Source: a bacterium HR16 (GTDB lineage Bacteria; Armatimonadota; HRBIN16). From it: a stretch of 47,344 bases of DNA. Below, one piece after another: positions 7,183 to 38,927 of this stretch. Made by a program: the position numbers and the translations under genes. The stretch covers positions 1 to 47,344 of the forward strand of contig BEHS01000003.1 of the NCBI GenBank assembly GCA_002898895.1, read 5' to 3'. Under the pieces are notes generated by a model, which ran no database searches, was not told the DNA's origin, and worked only from the letters and a program-made list of their open reading frames with translations. Within the stretch, counting starts at the first letter, position 1, and every line of letters begins with the position of its first letter.

Positions 7183-7641
7183 ATGAACTTTGAAAAAGTA
7201 ACTAAAGCGATGTTGTGCTACTGGTCTGCCAGGGTTCCTTCCCGGGGAGGGCGAGGCTCCGTCCGAGCGGTTAGCCCCCCTGTAGTCCCCCCGCAAGCAG
7301 GGGGACACAATACTCCTCCCCGCGTGCGGGGAGGTGGGGTGGGGCGAATCGGCTCACCCGGAGGTTCGCCCTCCAGGTATGGCAATGCAGCAATCCCTCT
7401 GGAGGGCGAGGCTCCGTCCGAGCCGTCCTTTCCGGTCACGACGGAGCGCGCCCCCCGCCGAAGCCAGCCTGCGTAAGGGAAGCGCAACCTGAAGGTTGCA
7501 GCTACAACCCTGCGAAGGCAGGGTCTGGTTTGAAAGGGTGCGGCTTTAGCCGCAAACCCGTGCCCAGCATTCCCTTGCCCGCACAGGGGGAGGAGCAGGA
7601 AGTGCTCGTCGCATAGATGCGACTATTTTTTCAAAGTTCAT
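7183..7641. repeat. 459-bp block of palindromic repeats bracketed by 15-bp inverted repeats
   Basis: The block is bounded by ATGAACTTTGAAAAA (7183-7197) and its exact reverse complement (7627-7641). Inside are copies of the dispersed GGAGGGCGAGGCTCC palindrome (about 7244-7376 with an internal insertion, and 7402-7435 as a half copy). Three back-to-back hairpins follow: GCAACC/GGTTGC (7484-7499), ACCCTGC/GCAGGGT (7507-7524) and TGCGGCT/AGCCGCA (7539-7554). Next to the right border, GTCGC/GCGAC (about 7608-7624) runs into a T-stretch. No transposase frame is present. It could be a MITE-like non-autonomous element or an accumulation of REP-like units. Confidence 0.55.
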
Positions 7642-27930: not shown

Positions 27931-30819
27931 ATGCCTCAGGACAAGATTATCGTTCGCGGCGCGCGTCAGCATAACCTGAAAAACATTACCGTCGAAATCC
28001 CGCGCGATAAGCTGGTGGTCATCACCGGCATCTCGGGGTCGGGCAAGTCCAGTCTGGCGTTCGACACCATCTACGCCGAGGGTCAGCGACGGTATGTCGA
28101 GTCGCTTTCCGCCTACGCCAGGCAGTTCCTCGGTCAGATGGACAAGCCAGACGTGGACGACATCATCGGCCTCTCGCCGGCGGTTTCGATTGACCAGAAG
28201 TCCACCAGCAGAAACCCGCGCTCGACGGTAGCCACCGTCACCGAGATTTACGACCACCTGCGCCTGCTCTATGCCCGAATCGGCATCCCGCACTGCCCTC
28301 AGTGCGGGCGCGAAATCACCCAGCAGACGGTGGAACAGGTGGTGGACACCATCCTCGCCCTGCCGGAGGGCACGCGCCTGCAGATTCTCGCCCCCATCGT
28401 GCGCGGACGCAAAGGCGAATACCGCAAGGAGATGGAGGATGCCCGCAAGGCAGGCTACAACCGCCTGCGCGTGGACGGCGAACCGGTAGACCTCAGTGAA
28501 CAGCCCATCCCGACGCTTGACCGATATAAGATTCACCATATCGAGGTGGTGGTAGACCGTATCGTAGTGCGTGCGGGTATCGAGAAGCGGCTCGCCGACT
28601 CGGTAGAGACCGCCATGCGCATGGGACAGGGCGTGGTCATCGCGCAGATTGTGGACGGCGAGGAGCTGGTCTTTTCGGAGAACTTCGCCTGCGCGGAGTG
28701 CGGCATCAGCCTGCCGGAGATCGAGCCGCGCAGTTTCTCGTTCAACAGTCCATATGGGGCTTGTCCTGAATGTCACGGTTTGGGCTTCAAAACCGAGTTT
28801 GACCCCGCGCTCATCGTGCCTGACCCCAGCAAGAGCATCGCCGAGGGCGCGATAGAACCCTTCGCCGGTAAGGACGGCTTGATGCCCTACTACGAGGGGC
28901 TACTGCGCGGGGTAGCACAGAAACTGGGCTTCACCATCCACACACCCCTCAACCGACTGAACGAAAAGCAATGGCACGACCTCTTCTACGGCGTGGAAGG
29001 CAACGTCACCGTCACCTTCCGCAACCGCTGGGGACGCACCCGCTACTTCGACAGCGAGTTCGAAGGCATTATCGCCATGCTGCAGCGCCGTTACAACGAA
29101 ACAGAGTCCGAAAACGTACGCGAGTGGCTACAGCGGTACATGTCCGACAAACCCTGCCCCAAGTGCAAGGGGTTGCGTCTGAAGGACGAGAGTCTGGCTG
29201 TAACGGTAGGCGGATTAAACATCGCGCAGCTGACCGCGCTATCGGTGGAGGAGGCACAGAGGTTCTTCGACGAACTGCCTTTGCATCTCAGTGAGCGCCA
29301 ACGGCACATCGCTCACCAGTTGCTGCGCGAAATCCAGACGCGACTGGGCTTCTTGCTGGACGTAGGGCTGGGCTACCTTACTCTGGACCGTCCTGCAGCG
29401 ACGCTGGCAGGCGGCGAAGCGCAGCGCATCCGCCTCGCCACGCAAATCGGCAGTGGGCTGATGGGCGTGCTGTACATTCTGGACGAGCCCAGCATCGGCT
29501 TGCATCAGCGCGATAACCAGAAGCTGATTCATACCCTGTTGCACCTGCGCGACCTGGGCAATACGATTATCGTGGTGGAGCACGACGAGGAGACCATCCG
29601 TACCGCCGACCACATCATCGACATCGGTCCGGGTGCAGGAGAGCACGGCGGATATATTGTGGCGCAGGGCACGGTGGAGGATATTATCGCCTGCGAGCAG
29701 TCCATTACGGGGCAGTACCTCAGCGGTAAGCGACGGATTCCGGTGCCGCTCATCCGCAGGCAACCGGGCGACCGCTGGTTGACCATTCGCGGCGCGCGCC
29801 AGCATAACTTGAAGAACATCACCGTGCGCATCCCGCTGGGGCTGTTCGTGTGCGTGACGGGCGTTTCCGGCTCCGGCAAGTCCACGCTGATTCAGGAAAC
29901 CCTCTATCCGCGCCTGATGTATCACGTGTACGGCTCACACCCGCTGTGGGGCGAACACGACGGCGTGGACGGCATCGAATACATCGATAAAGTGGTAGAC
30001 ATCGACCAGTCGCCTATCGGGCGCACACCGCGATCGAACCCCGCTACTTACACGGGCGTGTTCGACATGATTCGGGAACTGTTCGCCAGCACGCAGGACG
30101 CACGGGTGCGCGGTTACAAGCCGGGGCGGTTCAGCTTCAACGTGAAAGGCGGACGTTGTGAGGCGTGCAGAGGCGACGGTATCATCAAGATAGAGATGCA
30201 CTTCCTGCCCGACGTGTACGTGCCCTGCGAGGTGTGTAAAGGCAAGCGTTACAACCGCGAAACGCTCGAAGTGAAGTATAAAGGCAAGTCCATCGCCGAT
30301 GTGCTGGATATGACGGTGGAAGAGGCGCTGGACTTCTTCAAAGCCATTCCACCCATTGCCCGCAAACTGCAGACCCTGCACGACGTGGGGCTGGACTACA
30401 TGAAGCTGGGGCAACCCGCTACTACCCTGTCGGGCGGTGAGGCGCAACGGGTGAAACTGGCTACCGAGCTGTCCAAGCGAGGCACGGGCAGGACGCTGTA
30501 CATTCTGGACGAGCCTACCACCGGTTTGCACTTCGCAGACATCGAGAAACTGCTCAACGTACTACACCGCCTGGTGGACAACGGCAACACGGTTATCGTG
30601 ATTGAGCATAATCTGGACGTGATTAAGACCGCCGACTGGATTATCGACCTCGGTCCTGAAGGGGGCGCAGAGGGCGGCTACGTGGTGGCAGAAGGCACAC
30701 CCGAGGATGTTGCGCAGGTAGAAGCGAGCTATACAGGACAGTTCCTGCGCAAAATGCTGGACGTGGATGGAAGGGCAAAAGGTTTAAACCACCATAATCC
30801 CACTTCCTGCTACCGGTGA
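27931..30819 (+). CDS. uvrA: Excinuclease ABC subunit A
   Basis: A 962-residue nucleotide-excision-repair damage sensor of normal length. Walker A1 is [20 protein letters not shown] near residue 35; the first zinc finger has [13 protein letters not shown] signature 1 is [18 protein letters not shown] with Walker [15 protein letters not shown]. The second ABC domain has [15 protein letters not shown], the zinc finger [20 protein letters not shown] with CEVCKG, signature [18 protein letters not shown] and Walker [16 protein letters not shown]. It forms a dimer that loads UvrB on DNA lesions. The 3' end overlaps the convergent kinase fusion gene by 36 bp. Confidence 0.98.
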
Positions 30820-33399
30820 GCATACGAACATCTCCGGCTCCAGGTTGCGCGGGGCGTAGTAGTGATCGGTCAGGGCGCGCTGCACCGCGTCGCAGGCGTC
30901 CTCGCGCACCAGCACCAGGATACAGCCACCCAACCCTGCCCCCAGTATCTGCGCCCCCAGCACACCCGGCACGCGCAACGCCACATCCACCATCCAGTCG
31001 ATTTCCGGTGTGCTACAGGCGTATGCGCCCGGCTGCCATACAAGGTCGGCGTCCGGGAGATTGTGCTCCGCTTGTTGGGCAAGATGTTGTAAGACGGTGT
31101 CAGAATAGTCCACCGCAAAGGGCTGGAAATCATCGCCGTCGGTGTTCCAGCGGGCAACACGGTCGCCGTCATGCGAACGGTTCATCCACTGCCCGAAAGT
31201 ATCGATGTGACCCTCGTGCAACAGCGCTGCGGTTCGGCGGCTGCGCTCACACTCTGCCAGCCCGAAAACCACCACCGGACGTATGGGATAGCGGTTCAGC
31301 TTCTCGTCGTGCGTGCTGAGGTAGGACATTATCCGTTCGGCAGGCAGCCGTTCCAGCAGGTGCTGGCGTTCCACAACCTCGGGCAGATGCGCAAGCAGGC
31401 GGTACAGCTCGGCGAGCGAGATGCCCAGTCGCCCGGTATTCACATCACGCAGGTGCTCGATGTACGGGGAGAGGTGCGGAAAGGTGTGTTTGAGCCATTC
31501 CCTGCCCAGATGATAACACGCTACCCGGTGGTTGAACTGGTCGCGCGCGCCGGCGGTCTTCTTCGCCTGCTGGTGCGAGTGGCACACCAGAAACCGATAC
31601 CCCTGCGGGAAAGGCACAGTGCCCACCACGCGGAAGGGGAAGAAGCTCATGGCGACTACCGCGTCTCGCCGCGCGAACTTCATCGCCGCGTGGTCGCCTG
31701 CCCCGCCGCGCGTGCCCACATACCACTCTGCCTCACCGCACAGGTCCACGAACTGCTCAGGAGGCAATTCAAAGCGGTTCAGATGCAGTAATGCCTCCAT
31801 CGTCGCGACTACCACCGCTGAAGAGGAGCTCAGTCCCGCACCGATGGGCACGTTGCCGTCGGCGGTCAGATTAAAACCCGGCAGCACGTAGTCGGCGAAA
31901 TGCGCTTGCAGGCGAGCGCAGGCGGCTTTCACGTATTGCGACCACTCACCGCGCGCGGCAGCAGCCGCCTCCAGTATCGGCGCGCTGTTCACGAACTCCA
32001 CCCACGCGCCCGGCTGATAGCCCGACAGCAAATCGTCCAGTGTAAACTCACAAGGCGGGAACGCCTGTGACCGAAGGTTCTGCAGCTGCACACGTCGGTC
32101 ATCGCGCAACCCGACCACCGCGTGCACGTCACGGTCGACGGCAATCATGTTGACGTGTCCGCCCTGGTGGTCGATGTGCCTGCCCATGATATTCACCCTG
32201 CCGGGTGCGCGTGCGATAACCACCTGCTGGTCGCCGAATCGCTGCAGATGCAGGGTGAGCAGTGACAGCAGACGTTCCCGCTTGCGTTCCACAATCGCTT
32301 CATCGCCGCCGTAGGTGTTGCGCAGATGGTTCAGGAAGGCATCATCGCGTGCCTCGATAGCACGCAGCCATTGACTGACCGTGCGCATACCCTGCGGCAG
32401 TTGCTGTACCTGCACCCGCCGACGGGAGAGGAGGTATTCCTCAATTGCCTGCAGTTCCTCCGGGGTGTTGAACGCCATCGCCTCTTCGGGGTAAGCGACA
32501 GGCACGGTGTGAATAACCGCCCCGCGCTGCGATAGCAGTGCGACGATGTCGGTGAGGTATTCCTCCCCCTGCGCGTTGTCTGCGCTCAGTTTTGCCAGCG
32601 CGTCGTACAGGACGGGCGCACGGAACAGGTAGACCGAGAGATTCGCCTCCTGCGCCTGCTCCACTTGCGAGAGGGGCAATACGCTGTTGCCCACACGGAC
32701 GCCGTCAAGAGGAGGAGTGCTTTCGGCAGACACCGGCTCACCGCGTTCTATCGCTTGCCACAGGTCGCCCAGCGCACGCGCCGCCTTTTTCTCCTGCGGA
32801 AAGGTTCTGACGACAAGGCGTCTGGCTTCTTCGGCGGGCAAGGGGGCAGAATGCGCCATCTGTCGCAGGGCGTGCAGAACCTGTGCCCGCGCCAGGTCAA
32901 ACACCTCCACAATAGCGCACACCTTACCCGTCGCATCGCGCACCACGCGCCCGGAGGTGGGAAAGTGCTCCACACTGCCTACTGCAAAAGCAAGGTCGCT
33001 TCGGGTGGAGTAGAAGGTATCTATCAAGCGAGCGAGGAACGCCTCTTCAATCACCTTGTCGCCTGCAACCACCAGCACGTCGCCTTCATAGCTCAGCGAC
33101 TGCAACAGGTCTGCCGCCACGCGGGTAGCATGACCCGTGCCACGCGGTTCCGGCTGGTGAGCGTAGAGGCGTTGCCCCGGCAGGTCCTTCAGCACTCCCA
33201 TAATGGCTTCCGCACCCTGTCCGACGACGACACAGTGCGTGTGAATCCCACAGCGCACGTACGACCCTACGGCGCGGGCAATAGCGGGCGTGCCAGCGAT
33301 GGGGAAACACACCTTCGGCAGGTGGGTTGCTTTCATGCGCGTGCCCCGCCCCGCCGCCAGTATCACCGCCACTATGGGATGCGAACGAGAGATGTTCAT
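30784..33399 (-). CDS. Bifunctional NDP-sugar nucleotidyltransferase and GHMP sugar-1-kinase
   Basis: An 871-residue fusion. Residues of about 8-310 form a GlmU/GalU-like nucleotidyltransferase ([45 protein letters not shown]). Residues of about 395-871 form a galactokinase-like GHMP kinase, with substrate-binding [23 protein letters not shown]-binding [20 protein letters not shown] and the C-terminal motif [14 protein letters not shown]. The GRxxxMGRHIDH box differs from the GExTDYNGG of galactokinase, so another sugar is likely. Fused kinase plus pyrophosphorylase enzymes such as FKP salvage a free sugar to NDP-sugar in two steps; here the order is nucleotidyltransferase first. The product may feed surface glycan synthesis. 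Sugar identity unknown. Confidence 0.88.
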
Positions 33400-33539
33400 G
33401 TCAGACTATCTGTTCGAAGGGTTGTTATTCGCAGATTCGATGGGGGCGGTTCGATTCCCTTTTGGGGAGCGGTTAGCACAGAGAAGGAGCATTCGTGCAG
33501 TCGATAAGTAGGGTCCGGGTATGCATAAGAGACACAACG

Positions 33540-33645
33540 TATCTGGCGCAAGCTGCGCACCGTGCGTCAAGTCGGCTATAGCGGTCGGTGACACTGCCCG
33601 AACTGTCAAGGGGCAAGCGGGTGTAACTGAGAGTTCCAGAACACT
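33540..33645 (-). pseudogene. RHS core remnant
   Basis: Minus-strand translation gives TRLPLDSSGSVTDRYSRLDA, a recognisable RHS core element (usual form: STR-L-TDSSGxVxDRYxYDA). The frame has no start and soon runs into unrelated sequence and a stop. ACTGCCCGAACTGTCAAGG (33593-33611) is an exact 19-bp match to 37253-37271 in the other RHS remnant. It is a broken end of an RHS gene. Confidence 0.6.
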
Positions 33646-33709
33646 GTCACAAAGCCTGCCTGCCGGAAATGGTGGTCCGCTGTAAATCCCTTACGGATGT
33701 CCTCACGCT

Positions 33710-33799
33710 CTACGCTACCGTCAGGCGGCTCCCAGGCACGGCTACAGGCTCTTCGGGAATGAACACTCCGCCCCGAAACCGCACGCGAATGGTTGCCAT
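33710..33799 (-). CDS. 29-codon DUF104/AF2212-like antitoxin fragment
   Basis: A very short ORF from ATG 33799 with an excellent AAAGGAGG 9 bases upstream. The product begins MATIRVRFRGGVFIPEEPV and ends at a TAG after 29 residues. The opening 'I-x-x-FRGGVF-P-EPV' pattern is that of the N-terminal strand pair of DUF104/AF2212-type antitoxins, normally 60-75 residues long. It therefore appears truncated by a premature stop. The RBS suggests it may still be translated. No PIN-domain toxin gene is next to it. Confidence 0.4.
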   Translation of the reverse strand: MATIRVRFRGGVFIPEEPVAVPGSRLTVA

Positions 33800-33870
33800 C
33801 CGAGTTGACCTCCTTTGCTTCTTATCACAGCGTATCCAGATGCACTGCGCAGAGAGGAGGAACACCCGCG

Positions 33871-34758
33871 CTATGAAAAGAGGTTGCCCGCCAAATCAAA
33901 ATCAGGGTGCACCCACGTTCCGTCCATCGGCTTCAATGAGACCCATACCTCCGTCGAGAAAAAGGGTGAGTTGAGTATCTCATAGGCTCGTTGCGAAATG
34001 TAAACGCCGCTGTACGAAGACACGTGGAAAAAGTCCGACCCGTCCCACTGCGACTCGTCCAATCGTATCTTCAGGGGGTGATCCCCGCGCAGATACCATC
34101 GCTTACACTCCGGGCACTGGAAATACTCGCCGCCCGGGCTCACAAGAGAGGGTAATCCGGCGTAGCCTGTCACCACCGCTTCGTATACCTCGCTTGGCTT
34201 GCCATCACGAGTGTAGACAGGAAAAAGTTCCAAGCCTGTCACGCCCGCTTCTAACAATTCATCCCCCGCCCTTCTGGAGAAGTACAGGCTATCCCCCAGC
34301 ACCCCGTGACACAGAACATCCCACTTTGGCTTGAAACCTTTACGCACCACGAGGGGGCCAACACCCGCGTTCGGCGACACCAAACGCTTCGGCGAAAAAT
34401 TATATATCCGTCGTATAGTCTGCTCGATGGCAAAAAATTGCTCAGGCGTAACACTGAGGAACAGCTCTATCTCCTTGTCCACTTGCTTAGCCTCATCTTT
34501 GCCTGTGGAGGCATCCGATTCCATCGCATACCACAATCTCTCCATCATCTCGCGAGGAATCTCATGCGGATAAGGCTCAAGCAGCTTGCGAACTTCTGGT
34601 AACACAGGTTCTGGCACTTCGGCAGCCGCAATCAAAAATCCGCTTTGATCACAGGTAGGACAGTATACGCCTGGTAGGTAGAGGTCTTCCTTCCGCCTAA
34701 CCTCAAACTTCCAGTCCATTGTGTCAGAGGTGACTACATACCACTGCATCCACTTCAT
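33871..34758 (-). CDS. Double-CXXC immunity-like protein (SitI6/TIGR02264 type)
   Basis: A 295-residue cytosolic protein. It has two CxxC pairs, one near residue 35 (PGVYCPTCDQSG) and one near residue 221 (YFQCPECKRWY). Between them are the family-like segments VSPNAGVGPLVV and RAGDELLEAGVTGLELFPVY, and after the second pair a stretch DGSDFFHVSSYSGVYIS and ERFVETV-like end (AYEILNSPFFSTEVW). This matches the layout of the 'double-CXXCG motif' family, members of which are immunity proteins to Sit/RHS-type toxins, although the Gly after each pair is Asp/Lys here. ATG 34758 has GGGAGG 8 bases upstream. GC is lower than in flanking genes. It lies 42 bp after the next upstream gene's stop. Confidence 0.7.
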   Translation of the reverse strand: MKWMQWYVVTSDTMDWKFEVRRKEDLYLPGVYCPTCDQSGFLIAAAEVPEPVLPEVRKLLEPYPHEIPREMMERLWYAMESDASTGKDEAKQVDKEIELFLSVTPEQFFAIEQTIRRIYNFSPKRLVSPNAGVGPLVVRKGFKPKWDVLCHGVLGDSLYFSRRAGDELLEAGVTGLELFPVYTRDGKPSEVYEAVVTGYAGLPSLVSPGGEYFQCPECKRWYLRGDHPLKIRLDESQWDGSDFFHVSSYSGVYISQRAYEILNSPFFSTEVWVSLKPMDGTWVHPDFDLAGNLFS

Positions 34759-34800
34759 TCTGATTCCTCCCTGTTCCAGCATATCCCTGATTTTGGGTTC

Positions 34801-35628
34801 TTACTCAACAAAACGAGTACCCGCAGATATAACAACAGAAATATCGTCCCTATTACCAAAAATGCCATCACTTCCCGCGCTGCGAAAAATAACCCTTTTC
34901 CCTTCTTGATTGATTTGCACCGCACGCTGCCACTCATCTACCAAAGCAAAACCCAAAATCCTGCGTAACCACTCGACATACTCGCGCAGTTCCCCTTTAT
35001 CCCTTGGTAAGTCGAAAGCCAACGATGGAGGCAGGTTCTTTATAAGCAAGCTATCTGCACAGCGTCTTGCGCATAGCATCGAAAGGGTCTTTATCCGATC
35101 ATTCTCTCTTCTATATGAGGATATTACTAACTGCCGCCACCACACGCTACCACGTGAATACGCTTTTAGCAGGAATTTGGTACGCTCCCCTTGCGGTAGT
35201 GCTGTTGATTGCACCCGCACCTCATGCTTGCCATCCACAGGTATTTTGCTACCGTATTGCCACATCCCCCTCCACTCAAGCATCCTTGTTCGGTACACAA
35301 CCAGTAGTCTCCGTTGTACCATACCGCATCCTCTCAAGGGTTGCCTGAAGGGATAAAAAGCTGTGCCATGCAATGTCGCAAGGTCAGAAATGATGATACC
35401 GGTTCGCTCGTAAACATAGCGGGAGAGGTCGCAACACATCACCATGTGATAGTACTCTATCTGTTGGCAAGTGCGCGCAGTCAGCCATTTTCGATGGTAA
35501 CAAGCAGGATAGAAGACGATAGAGGCTGCAGCGAGAACCACAAGCCCCCACCCTAGCAGTTCCGTCATTGTGCGGCGGTTTCGAACTGAAAACCTATGCA
35601 GGCTATCTAATAGCTTTCTTACTACCAT
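34801..35628 (-). CDS. Hypothetical membrane-anchored protein in the RHS island
   Basis: A 275-residue protein I do not recognise. One N-terminal membrane helix (LLGWGLVVLAAASIVFYPACY, residues of about 24-44) precedes a basic, mostly soluble domain with a Cys pair (VMCCDLS, residues 68-74). The C terminus reads RSAGSDGIFGNRDDISVVI, a loop much like the calcium-binding end of GspG-type pseudopilins (SAGPDGxxGTxDDI). GC is about 45-50 percent, below the window average. The start at 35628 lies inside the 3' end of an RHS tip frame, the position expected of an immunity gene. RBS is weak; M21 is an alternative start. Confidence 0.6.
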   Translation of the reverse strand: MVVRKLLDSLHRFSVRNRRTMTELLGWGLVVLAAASIVFYPACYHRKWLTARTCQQIEYYHMVMCCDLSRYVYERTGIIISDLATLHGTAFYPFRQPLRGCGMVQRRLLVVYRTRMLEWRGMWQYGSKIPVDGKHEVRVQSTALPQGERTKFLLKAYSRGSVWWRQLVISSYRRENDRIKTLSMLCARRCADSLLIKNLPPSLAFDLPRDKGELREYVEWLRRILGFALVDEWQRAVQINQEGKRVIFRSAGSDGIFGNRDDISVVISAGTRFVE

Positions 35629-35911
35629 GTCGTTTCAGTAGATTCCCCAAGGATGAACGTCCGTAACCGATACTAAACACAGGACTACACAACCCTCTCA
35701 TGCGAAGATGCAGCAAAGGAAACGATAGGCGAAACCATCTGTAGCTGATATCACCAACAACAATGATTGTTGCCCGCTTCCGTGCCCCTACTGTCGCTGC
35801 TTGACGCGCAGACTTAACAGGCTGTTTCTCGCGCTTCTGTGTTGCAGCCACATTGGCATAGTTGATCGGCTCATTCCCGCAGTACCGATACAGGTTCGGG
35901 TCGCCGGAGGT
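35603..35911 (-). pseudogene. Orphan RHS C-terminal tip
   Basis: The frame begins within the RHS core end: SGDPNLYRYCGNEPINYAN, the conserved 'DPxNLYRYCGNxPVNYxDPTG' region that precedes a variable tip. It continues into about 80 basic residues with no recognised fold and stops at 35603. There is no start codon for the core part; a GTG inside gives the 82-residue frame. It starts a few bases after the stop of the 35917-36573 gene and ends 26 bp inside the 34801-35628 gene. Displaced 'orphan' tips followed by an immunity gene are typical of RHS loci. Confidence 0.65.
35886..35910 (+). repeat. 25-bp exact direct repeat, copy 1 (RHS core end)
   Basis: CGATACAGGTTCGGGTCGCC followed by GGAGG, identical to 37180-37204. 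It codes for the SGDPNLYR stretch on the minus strand. Both copies sit just upstream of a tip region and could recombine to exchange or delete the 1.3 kb in between. Confidence 0.85.
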
Positions 35912-35916
35912 TGGAT

Positions 35917-36573
35917 TTATTGTTCAAGAGATTCACCCTTTTGCCGTATGAACCCAAGTGCAGGGGTCACTAGACCGATATCTCCGATACCCTGCCTCCA
36001 GAGTGGTAACAGCAACGCGGTGAACTGGTTACCCCAGATGATCATCTCATACTCACTACGAGATGCACCAGGAACGCGCTCTAAGTAGTAGGTCAGGTAT
36101 ATGCCAGCACTGACATCCGCATCAGAGATATACACATCATCCCCATCAAGGCTAACCAGAGCTAACGCATGGTTGAGCACATCCCCACTCGTAATCCGCA
36201 CAGCAACAGTATCTATTCCCACACGCCAATACAACCACATCGGCACCTCAGACATATTCGCCGTCAACTGAGCCAGAACTCGCTTGAGTGCACGCTGAAG
36301 CTTTGCTGGTACTTTTAGGTAAAAATGATAGCGTTTACCCTCTCTGCATTCCGCGAGATGCAGCAAATACTTTTTAAACCATTCCTCCGATTCGGCTGTT
36401 TCCACTTCTGTGGCGATATCCACAGTTCTCCCTAAAATGGTGGACAACCTTTTCATCTCAGATGGCAAATGGCGTTTTAAACGGTTCCTGCGCAAGGCTT
36501 TGCTCAGAGCATCATCAACTTGCACTACTGTCCCTCCTTGTAACCCCGATGAATCATCTCCTGTATGGAACAT
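35917..36573 (-). CDS. Candidate immunity protein for the adjacent RHS tip
   Basis: A 218-residue soluble protein without a recognised family: basic N-terminal third (SKALRRNRLKRHLPSEMKRL), a middle with CREGKRYHFYLKVPAKLQRA, and an ordered C-terminal half (GDDVYISDADVSAGIYLTYYL, EYEMIIWGNQFTALLLPLW). No signal peptide. Its start (ATG 36573) overlaps the stop of the RHS tip frame (36554) by 20 bp, the position of cognate immunity genes in polymorphic toxin loci. That placement is the only evidence for an immunity role. Composition differs from the housekeeping neighbours. Confidence 0.6.
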   Translation of the reverse strand: MFHTGDDSSGLQGGTVVQVDDALSKALRRNRLKRHLPSEMKRLSTILGRTVDIATEVETAESEEWFKKYLLHLAECREGKRYHFYLKVPAKLQRALKRVLAQLTANMSEVPMWLYWRVGIDTVAVRITSGDVLNHALALVSLDGDDVYISDADVSAGIYLTYYLERVPGASRSEYEMIIWGNQFTALLLPLWRQGIGDIGLVTPALGFIRQKGESLEQ

Positions 36574-37375
36574 TCACTTTGGGCTTGTGTGAAATTCGGT
36601 CAGTATTGTCATAGCGAAGGTGTCCTAATGGGTCAATTCCCCCTCCCCGCTTCGGGGTAGAAGCTTCCCAATGTGGATATGGATGATTCGTATCCGCAGG
36701 GTGGTGAGTAACAACCTTCCTACCCATACCGCCTCCTGGCAAAGGTACCGCATACTCGTACTGCCGGTTGTTTGCCGTTCCTCGCCGGGCAATAGGCTGC
36801 CGACATGTGGGTATCCCTGCCCGTCTCATCGCCTCACGCCTCGCTGCTCGCAAACTCTCGCAGACAACCTCTTCTGAAGGACGCGCTGCTCTTAAGACCT
36901 TGCTGCCAGCTCGCTCATACAGCACAACCGCAGAAGCATCTCGGACTCGCCTGACCCAGCGCCCCGTTTTGGCAACATCCCCCAGAATAGGCACAACACC
37001 CAAACCGGAGATCGCTGCGTTCGCCCAGTCGCCTTCTAACGCATACAGCCCTGCGTTTAGCAGGTCTGCCAGCTCGCCAACACCCGGGTACAGCCCCAAT
37101 CAGGTCTAATCCGCCGTGTATCCACCGCGGGGCATAGCCCGTTGGGTCTACCGCATTGACCGGGTCACTTCCGCAGTAACGATACAGGTTCGGGTCGCCG
37201 GAGGCGACACCTATCGGGTCTTTCTGCAGCCACCGGGCGGTGCGGGGAGCATACTGCCCGAACTGTCAAGGAGCAAACGGGTGTGACCAAGACCATCAAT
37301 CACATAATACCGCGTTCCCGCTGGAGAGCGCAAGTGGATGTGACGCTTTTTATCCTGAGAAAGCACTACCGTCCC
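36554..37375 (-). pseudogene. RHS core end with toxin tip, frameshifted
   Basis: Read on the minus strand it goes: GTRYYVIDGLGHTRLLLDSS (RHS core), then after a frame change QYAPRTARWLQKDPIGVA, SGDPNLYRYCGSDPVNAVDP and TGYAPRWIHGGLDLIG, then after a second frame change GLYPGVGELADLLNAGLYAL (the pre-toxin hydrophobic/helical linker). The tip follows: REAMRRAGIPTCRQPIARRG, RQYEYAVPLPGGG, THHPADTNHPYPHWEASTPK, ending at 36554. The second break is one extra G in GGGG (37094-37097). The first coincides with a deletion of about 40 core residues. The His-rich tip suggests a nuclease-type toxin; this is not proven. Only the 181-residue tip frame (TTG 37099) is open. Confidence 0.75.
37180..37204 (+). 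repeat. 25-bp exact direct repeat, copy 2
   Basis: Identical to 35886-35910; it codes for SGDPNLYR of the RHS core on the minus strand. See the copy 1 entry for the implied recombination. Confidence 0.85.
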
Positions 37376-37380
37376 CATAA

Positions 37381-37405
37381 CGGCTCGGCAGGAGCCTCGC
37401 CCTCC
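37381..37405 (-). repeat. Half copy of the dispersed GGAGGGCGAGGCTCC palindrome
   Basis: Minus strand: GGAGGGCGAGGCTCCTGCCG followed by AGCCG. It sits exactly at the boundary between the RHS remnant and the gatB upstream region, in the same arrangement as the arms at 8766-8827. It marks one edge of the anomalous island. Confidence 0.7.
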
Positions 37406-37475
37406 AACCTGTTCAATCTGACCCTGCCTGTGATAAAATAAGAACGACGCCAGCTTTAAGGATGGAGGTCTGTGG

Positions 37476-38927
37476 ATGACGGAGTGGGAAGCCTGCATCG
37501 GCATGGAGGTACATGCCGAACTGTTGACCGATAGCAAGATGTTCTGTTCCTGCGCCAACGCTTTTGGCGGCGAGCCGAACACCCGTTGCTGCCCGGTGTG
37601 TACAGGGATGCCCGGCTCCCTGCCGGTGATGAACAAGAAGGCAGTGGAGATGGTGCTGCGCACCGCCCTTGCGCTCAACTGCGAAATCTCCATGACCTCC
37701 ATCTTTCATCGTAAAAACTACTTCTATCCCGACCTGCCCAAGAACTATCAGATTTCCCAGTACGGAGATACACCCATCGGCAAGCGAGGCTGGCTGGATG
37801 TGCCGGTAAACGGGCGTATCGTGCGCGTGCATATCCGCCGTGTGCATCTGGAGGAGGACACCGGCAAGCTCTTCCACCTGCCGACGGGCGAGAGCGCGGT
37901 GGACTACAACCGCAGCGGAGTGCCGCTCATGGAGATTGTGACCGAGTTTCCGCCCGACATGCACACCGCCGAGGAGGCGCGTGCCTACCTTCAGACCCTG
38001 CGCAGCGTGCTGGTGTATCTCGGCGTGTGTGACGGGCGAATGGAGCAGGGAAGTCTGCGCTGTGAACCCAACCTCTCGGTGCGCCCGAAGGGCAGCGATA
38101 CCTTCGGCGTCAAGACCGAGCTGAAGAACCTGAACTCCTTCCGCGCGGTGCAACGAGGCATTGAGTACGAGATACAGCGACATATTGCCGTGCTGGAATC
38201 GGGGGGCAAGGTGATTCAGGAAACGCGAGGCTGGAACGACGAGCGCGGCGAGAGCTTCCCGATGCGCACCAAGGAGTACGAGCAGGACTACCGCTACTTC
38301 CCCGAGCCTGACCTCGTGCCGGTGCAGTTTACGGAGGAATGGATAGAGCAGGTACGCGCCTCTCTGCCGGAGTTGCCTCTGGCAAAACGCCAGCGCTTCA
38401 TAGAACAGTACGCCCTGCCCGAATACGACGCCACCCTGCTGGTGGAAGACCGCGCCACCGCCGATTACTTTGAGGAGGTGGTACAGCTCGGTGCGGAACC
38501 GAAAGCGGTCGCAAACTGGATGAACGGCGACCTCGCCCGCCTGATGAACGCAGCAGGTATCGAGCACATCCGCGATTGCAAAGTGCAGCCGAAACACCTG
38601 CGCGACCTCATCGGGCTGGTGCAGAAGGGCACTATCACCGGAAGCGTCGCCAAGCAGGTGCTGGAAGAGGTGTTCCATACGGGCGCAGAGCCTGCTCAGG
38701 TGGTACAGGCGAAGGGCTTGACACAGGTCAGCGACACCGACCAGCTCATAGCGTGGGTGCAGCAGGCAATTGCCGAAAACCCCGATGCGGCGGAGAAGGT
38801 GCGTAACGGCAAACTACAAACCTTGCAGTTTCTGGTGGGTCAGGTGATGAAGCTCAGCCGTGGACGTGCCAACCCCAACGAGGTGCGTCGCCTCATCGCC
38901 GAGCAACTTGGTGTACAGGTCGAGTAG
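37476..38927 (+). CDS. gatB: Asp-tRNA(Asn)/Glu-tRNA(Gln) amidotransferase subunit B
   Basis: A 483-residue protein of normal length. Signatures are [68 protein letters not shown] and [14 protein letters not shown] of the kinase/amidation domain, then the YqeY-like tail ([10 protein letters not shown] ... [14 protein letters not shown]) that binds tRNA. It phosphorylates and amidates mischarged Glu-tRNA(Gln) or Asp-tRNA(Asn) with GatA and GatC, which are not in the window. ATG 37476 has GGAGGT 6-7 bases upstream. Confidence 0.97.

Follow-up and report, generated by a model that had tools for sequence, protein, structure and literature searches.

A likely eroded orphan cluster of an Rhs polymorphic-toxin system between a sugar-kinase gene and gatB in an Armatimonadota genome

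How did 3.9 kb of A+T-richer DNA come to separate a sugar-kinase gene from gatB in bacterium HR16, a member of the Armatimonadota? The window analysed here is the whole of a 47,344-nt stretch (BEHS01000003.1), which is contig 3 (C3) of G000, a 3.79-Mb draft genome in 325 contigs that is 93.6% complete. The island between the two genes holds all of its gene pieces on the minus strand: three broken fragments of an Rhs core, two tips of which one is truncated and the other intact, and three candidate immunity open reading frames (ORFs), all intact. We consider it very likely that the island is what erosion has left of an orphan cluster from an Rhs polymorphic-toxin system. G000 was compared with G001, G002, G005, G006, G008 and G009, and with G185 from the same phylum (Table 1).

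The core fragments are the starting point for this interpretation. Fragment 1b lies well above the cut-off of TIGR03696 (Rhs_assc_core, 32.5 bits). Upstream of it, in another reading frame, is the motif HLRSPAGTRYYVIDGLGHTRLLLDSSG of fragment 1a, and about 50 core residues have been lost between these two out-of-frame pieces. Fragment 2 scores ~17 bits on the same profile, below the cut-off, and fragment 3 reads LSYTRLPLDSSGSVTDRYS, with 74% amino acid identity over 19 residues to intact cores. Intact cores from the same genus align with all three fragments in the window. A preliminary description of this DNA had counted three core remnants, and had offered to be judged by whether an Rhs profile matched any of them or an intact non-Rhs gene family covered them. 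TIGR03696 matches fragment 1 above its cut-off, and fragments 2 and 3 are in-register DNA repeats of fragment 1; the description was not refuted on these terms. A genome search with PF05593 for a full-length YD-repeat carrier gave no match on C3.

Behind fragment 1, a variable tip and an immunity gene follow on one strand (37339-35917), and the same order is found at locus L037 of G005. The tip ORF (36554-37099) is open and encodes 181 amino acids, comprising a linker (pre-toxin) half and an 85-residue C-terminal domain; it is frameshifted relative to the core and lacks a conventional start. The immunity gene is also open, and its true start may be an internal GTG. An orphan module in G005 matches the pair with 80% identity over 1,161 bp. 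Relative to G005, the ratio of nonsynonymous to synonymous substitution rates (dN/dS), averaged over the whole divergence, is 0.17 for the toxin domain (95% interval 0.07-0.33) and 0.30 for the immunity gene (0.18-0.46). Both values are below 1, which shows that toxin and immunity gene evolved under purifying selection. DNA identity within the module steps from 62-71% to ~89% at position ~36845, the boundary between linker and toxin. The synonymous rate (dS) falls from ~1.6 before this boundary to 0.33 across the toxin domain and is 0.59 for the immunity gene; the flanking genes have 0.67-0.82. Such a step and such a pattern of dS are the mark expected if the tip had been exchanged, at the toxin boundary, after the species split.

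Where did the island come from, and when? In G005 and G006, members of the same genus, the flanks align to the window up to 33465 and from 37407, and the spacer between the aligned flanks is ~146 bp and ~131 bp, respectively. The gap is also short in G002 (~656 bp between coding matches) and in G008 (~158 bp). GC content is 0.49-0.52 in the island and ~0.60 in its surroundings; that it is lower in the island had been noted in the preliminary description. The nearest relative, G009 (~90-91% DNA identity to G000), keeps the outermost Rhs fragment beside gatB (in register, from 37272 onward), with unrelated genes following it at a contig edge. Since this fragment is retained next to gatB, the island probably arrived before G000 and G009 split. 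Elsewhere in their genomes, the sister species carry these modules within larger orphan arrays. In particular, the G006 array has the order seen in the window: caspase-like tip, membrane immunity gene, DUF104, PIN and core. Because both the order and the homology of these pieces match, the island resembles part of a G006-like array, reduced in size. The fuller arrays in the genus and the empty kinase-gatB site in relatives bear out the preliminary description of a degraded, orphan Rhs island at this position. Its proposal to compare Armatimonadota genomes was productive in one respect, with fuller Rhs and orphan arrays that contain homologues of most of the pieces, but not in the other: an intact Rhs gene was not seen at the kinase-gatB locus in any relative examined.

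Table 1. Features of the island and its flanks (positions in the window)
Feature	Position	Strand	Basis or remark
Nucleotidyltransferase/sugar-kinase fusion gene	30784-33399	-	Left flank of island
Island, kinase-gatB insertion	33466-37406		Flank alignments to G005/G006; GC drop
Rhs core fragment 3	33575-33631	-	88% DNA repeat of 37253-37292 (fragment 1), 40 nt
PIN (VapC-like) toxin, C-terminal end	33639-33713	-	76% over 25 aa (amino acids), E 5e-11, to G006 L041 9998-10402
DUF104/AF2212-like antitoxin start, truncated (ORF 33710-33865)	33734-33799	-	82% over 22 aa to G006 L041 9723-10001
Orphan double-CXXC candidate immunity gene, 303 aa, intact, toxin absent	33871-34782	-	39% to G185 L148, E 1.8e-31
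Candidate immunity gene, 275 aa, N-terminal hydrophobic stretch, intact	34801-35628	-	Partner of lost caspase-like tip
Caspase/CHAT-like orphan tip stub, catalytic part missing	35732-35851	-	Homology to G006 L041 5582-5764
Rhs core fragment 2 (GDPNLYRYCGNEPINYAN)	35852-35920	-	90% DNA repeat of fragment 1 over 49 nt
Cognate immunity gene, 218 aa as listed, intact	35917-36573	-	72% to G005 partner
Toxin domain, 85 aa, intact, D-x2-H-x3-H-W-E core and conserved K	36557-36811	-	88% to G005
Pre-toxin linker of tip ORF	36812-37099	-	Homologous to pre-toxins of several unrelated tips in G005/G006/G009
Rhs core fragment 1b (..ARWLQKDPIGVASGDPNLYRYCGSDPVNAVDPTG)	37137-37256	-	TIGR03696 Rhs_assc_core 48-50 bits
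Rhs core fragment 1a (..RYYVIDGLGHTRLLLDSSG)	37250-37339	-	87% aa identity to G005/G006 Rhs cores; three-frame reading
Dispersed palindromic repeat copy	37386-37405	+	218 copies in G000 vs 0-1 for reversed control
gatB	37476-38927	+	Right flank of island

What would these genes have done, and what might they do now? Carried by a full-length Rhs protein, the tip would be set free inside a neighbouring cell, where it would act as a nuclease; in the producer cell, the 218-residue immunity protein would block it. In the present genome the tip is probably silent because no carrier is visible and the normal start is absent. The main Rhs gene of the arrays is intact in G006 and G001, is represented by a 30% partial hit in G000, and has no hit in G009; a close relative of this gene was not found in the G000 draft assembly. 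The frames that are still open are mainly those of immunity genes, which could still guard against kin that carry the same toxins, and the cluster as a whole is probably being lost. Contig 21 (C21) of G000 encodes an intact 1276-residue Rhs protein (L139, 3193-7023) whose core is of a different lineage and which has a Cys-rich tip of its own; there is no DNA match between this gene and the island.

The remainder of the island combines open and broken modules. The second tip (35603-35851) retains its start only, with 46% identity to a G006 tip over 63 amino acids, core fragment 2 included (phmmer, E = 2.6e-10). Two variable tips had been proposed originally; the one in the tip ORF is intact and the other is a stub. 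The full G006 caspase-like tip matches PF12770 (CHAT) weakly (E = 0.011). Complete tips of this caspase/CHAT-like type, with GHN and HACYTD motifs and a membrane-type immunity gene, are found at G006 L041 (5534-6208) and G005 L038 (4284-4973). The 275-residue protein is 32-33% identical to the product of the gene directly behind the caspase-like tip in G005 and G006 (E ~1e-19). All three candidate immunity genes named in the preliminary description are open. The 303-residue product has CXXC motifs at residues 41-44 and 223-226. It scores 15.2 bits on PF09535, failing the cut-off of 25, whereas its homologue L148 in G185 passes with 25.7 bits; L148 sits directly behind a PF09533 (DUF2380) ORF and ahead of another Rhs core. 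Through L148, the 303-residue ORF is connected to a known family of double-CXXC proteins, and its true relatives are found in other families of the phylum. We rejected its assignment as a homologue of the G006 gene in the same position, since phmmer did not support it even though both have two CXXC motifs. The DUF104-like ORF had been recognized as truncated, and it scores 15.7 bits on PF01954, below the cut-off, next to its match to the G006 homologue. Its antitoxin start is fused to the C-terminal end of a PIN toxin, a piece overlooked earlier, through a deletion of ~490 bp relative to G006. An Rfam scan gave nothing useful for the parts of the island.

A palindrome at the right edge had been described as dispersed, and so it is: this 20-mer, which resembles repetitive extragenic palindromic (REP) elements, has 218 copies in the genome (allowing up to 2 mismatches), many of them in pairs or triplets 71-72 bp apart. 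It is not a feature of the island. We ruled it out as an island border or mobile element, given that it is a genome-wide repeat and has no partner at the left edge. Further copies in the window lie at 7246, 7401, 8766 and 13840 (minus strand).

How widespread is the intact toxin/immunity pair? Relatives of the toxin domain in plasmid records (35-42% identity) are the C-terminal ends of Leptospira Rhs proteins, and others come from Cupriavidus and Cronobacter; there are none among phage records. A first contig scan with a narrow pattern gave no match. The genome-contig scan found 46 related loci, in Pseudomonadota, Bacteroidota, Planctomycetota, Armatimonadota and a few other groups, such as Opitutae and Bryobacterales. 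At most of these loci the domain forms the C-terminal end of a long ORF (Rhs, HINT-type or other), at most a few residues from the stop codon, and a further ORF begins directly after it. The partner proteins are also related: 26 of the 36 compared, including that of the window, form one cluster at E<1e-8, and the immunity variants from G002, G005 and G006 enter it at E<1e-3. The partners at L040 and L123 are a separate immunity type. These genes (L040, 5842-6696; L123, 649-1473) lie behind a subtype of the toxin domain in two Armatimonadota families and are unrelated to the first type. On contig 90 of G000, a fragment (L083, 5073-5213) scores 41.5 bits on the toxin alignment.

Neither the tip nor its partner matches a Pfam or NCBIfam model, and no PADLOC or PHROGs model matches the pair. 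The system is of a known kind, and the toxin/immunity family is widespread and unmodelled. The suggestion that this locus would be a source of unrecognised families thus proved sound for the intact pair, given its broad distribution and conserved pairing. The conserved toxin residues are D60, H63, H67, W68, E69, K74 and K98 (numbered as in the first sequence of alignment A11). An AlphaFold2 model of the toxin from 33 sequences, in which two plasmid rows were left out of the deeper alignment, has a predicted local distance difference test (pLDDT) of 91.7 and a predicted template modelling score (pTM) of 0.83. A fold search of two AlphaFold2 models against the PDB found no match (best E 0.78 and 0.67). 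We tentatively suggest, as something short of an even chance, that the 85-residue tip represents an unnamed cross-phylum family of nuclease-like toxins, possibly with a new small fold, that has its own conserved immunity superfamily and modules that are still exchanged among Armatimonadota species.

The toxin that most resembles the tip is Tox-HNH-EHHH (PF15657). The window tip shares with L131, L134 and L138 an AGIPTSQQP lead, after which those three have other endings; the two that were scanned, L134 and L138, match PF15657 at 49-51 bits. The tip also has the GR-Y-Y-P-GGG block and, like members of that family, is a C-terminal Rhs tip followed by an immunity gene. In contrast, its C-terminal half differs, with D-x2-H-x3-H-W-E and a later K in place of the GPHFN..H end. 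PF15657 does not match the window tip, or anything else in the genome at E<=10. Profile-profile alignment with hhalign downstream of the lead gave a single 25-column block (probability 93%) with the C-terminal half unaligned; its score of 37.5 compares with at most 12.5 in 30 column shuffles. TseI of Aeromonas dhakensis, a PF15657 member, is a DNA endonuclease that is bound by its immunity protein (PMC7170923). We lean slightly towards the toxin domain being a nuclease that works like Tox-HNH-EHHH. We do not claim membership in the family because PF15657 leaves the tip unmatched and the C-terminal half is different.

Are there other ways to account for the island? Selection might maintain the three immunity genes as an acquired-immunity cluster, with the toxin remnants as passengers. 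Every immunity ORF is open, whereas just one of the two tips survives and the 303-residue gene is without its toxin; elsewhere, orphan immunity genes are expressed and protective (PMC3150448). However, the tip ORF is open too, with a lower dN/dS (0.14 versus 0.30), which is unexpected for pure passengers. We regard this explanation, which overlaps in part with the one that we favour, as rather unlikely. Considerably less probable is a living reservoir, in which the island still works as an orphan cassette and recombination via the core repeats can fuse it to a main rhs gene. Such fusion is a known mechanism for Salmonella rhs orphans (PMC3967940; PMC3150448), and purifying selection on both genes, tip exchange at the toxin boundary and the persistence of core repeats would fit it. 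Yet the core pieces are short and frame-broken, and neither the second tip nor the DUF104-PIN pair has survived. Moreover, reactivation of the Salmonella type has no visible partner here, because the main Rhs gene of the genus gives the partial hit alone and the C21 gene is unmatched, an argument limited by the draft state of the genome. More improbable again is use of the intact pair as an intracellular type II toxin-antitoxin system. Orphan Rhs pairs in Salmonella act within the cell in this manner (PMC7043789), and both frames in the window are open and selected, but the tip has no clear start codon and a promoter scan, a weak test in Armatimonadota, found no sigma-70-like promoter in the region. 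Chance Rhs-like motifs in unrelated genes are in effect refuted: although fragments 2 and 3 individually fall below the profile cut-off, fragment 1 does not, and the fragments are near-identical DNA repeats that align to intact same-genus cores.

Several points weigh against our own interpretation, that of an eroded orphan cluster. The assembly is fragmentary, such that a carrier gene may have been missed. Errors of assembly might explain the small frameshifts, but not the loss of core residues or the lack of an N-terminus. The 303-residue ORF has no measurable similarity to the G006 gene at the same array position. The proposed nuclease activity rests on one shared block and on conserved His, Asp, Glu and Lys residues, and dN/dS, as an average, is no proof of present function.

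Our analysis adds the Armatimonadota to the bacteria in which Rhs orphan arrays, exchange of tips and orphan immunity genes are known; among the open papers searched, a single one mentions Rhs, toxins and this phylum together. It also provides a clean comparison inside one genus, in which genomes with an empty site and with fuller arrays can be set beside the decaying copy. The toxin/immunity pair occurs in bacteria as different as Leptospira, Erwinia, Bacteroidota and Planctomycetota, and annotation pipelines overlook it because current family libraries have no model for it.

How does the island compare with known systems? The 303-residue ORF resembles Gmx_para_CXXCG (PF09535) in its two CXXC motifs and in having a homologue behind a DUF2380 ORF, but is itself below the cut-off and has no adjacent toxin. 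Double-CXXC proteins of this family with DUF2380 (PF09533) partners are presumably of the myxobacterial SitI6/SitA6 type. Both ends of an AF2212/DUF104 and PIN (VapC-like) pair are recognisable in the window, and the whole pair is present inside the G006 array; the window copy, by contrast, is deletion-fused and dead, with 22 and 25 amino acids left. The closest parallel for the island as a whole is with the orphan rhs-CT/rhsI modules of Enterobacteriaceae (PMC3150448, PMC3967940). One mark of an orphan module is a position downstream of the main rhs gene; here, the neighbours are the kinase gene and gatB. Unlike the enterobacterial orphans, then, the island is detached from a main rhs gene, is in the Armatimonadota, lies amid housekeeping genes and is eroded. 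Nonetheless, it shares with them displaced tips that have a short piece of core, no normal start and an immunity gene each, as well as the interchange of modules at the toxin boundary.

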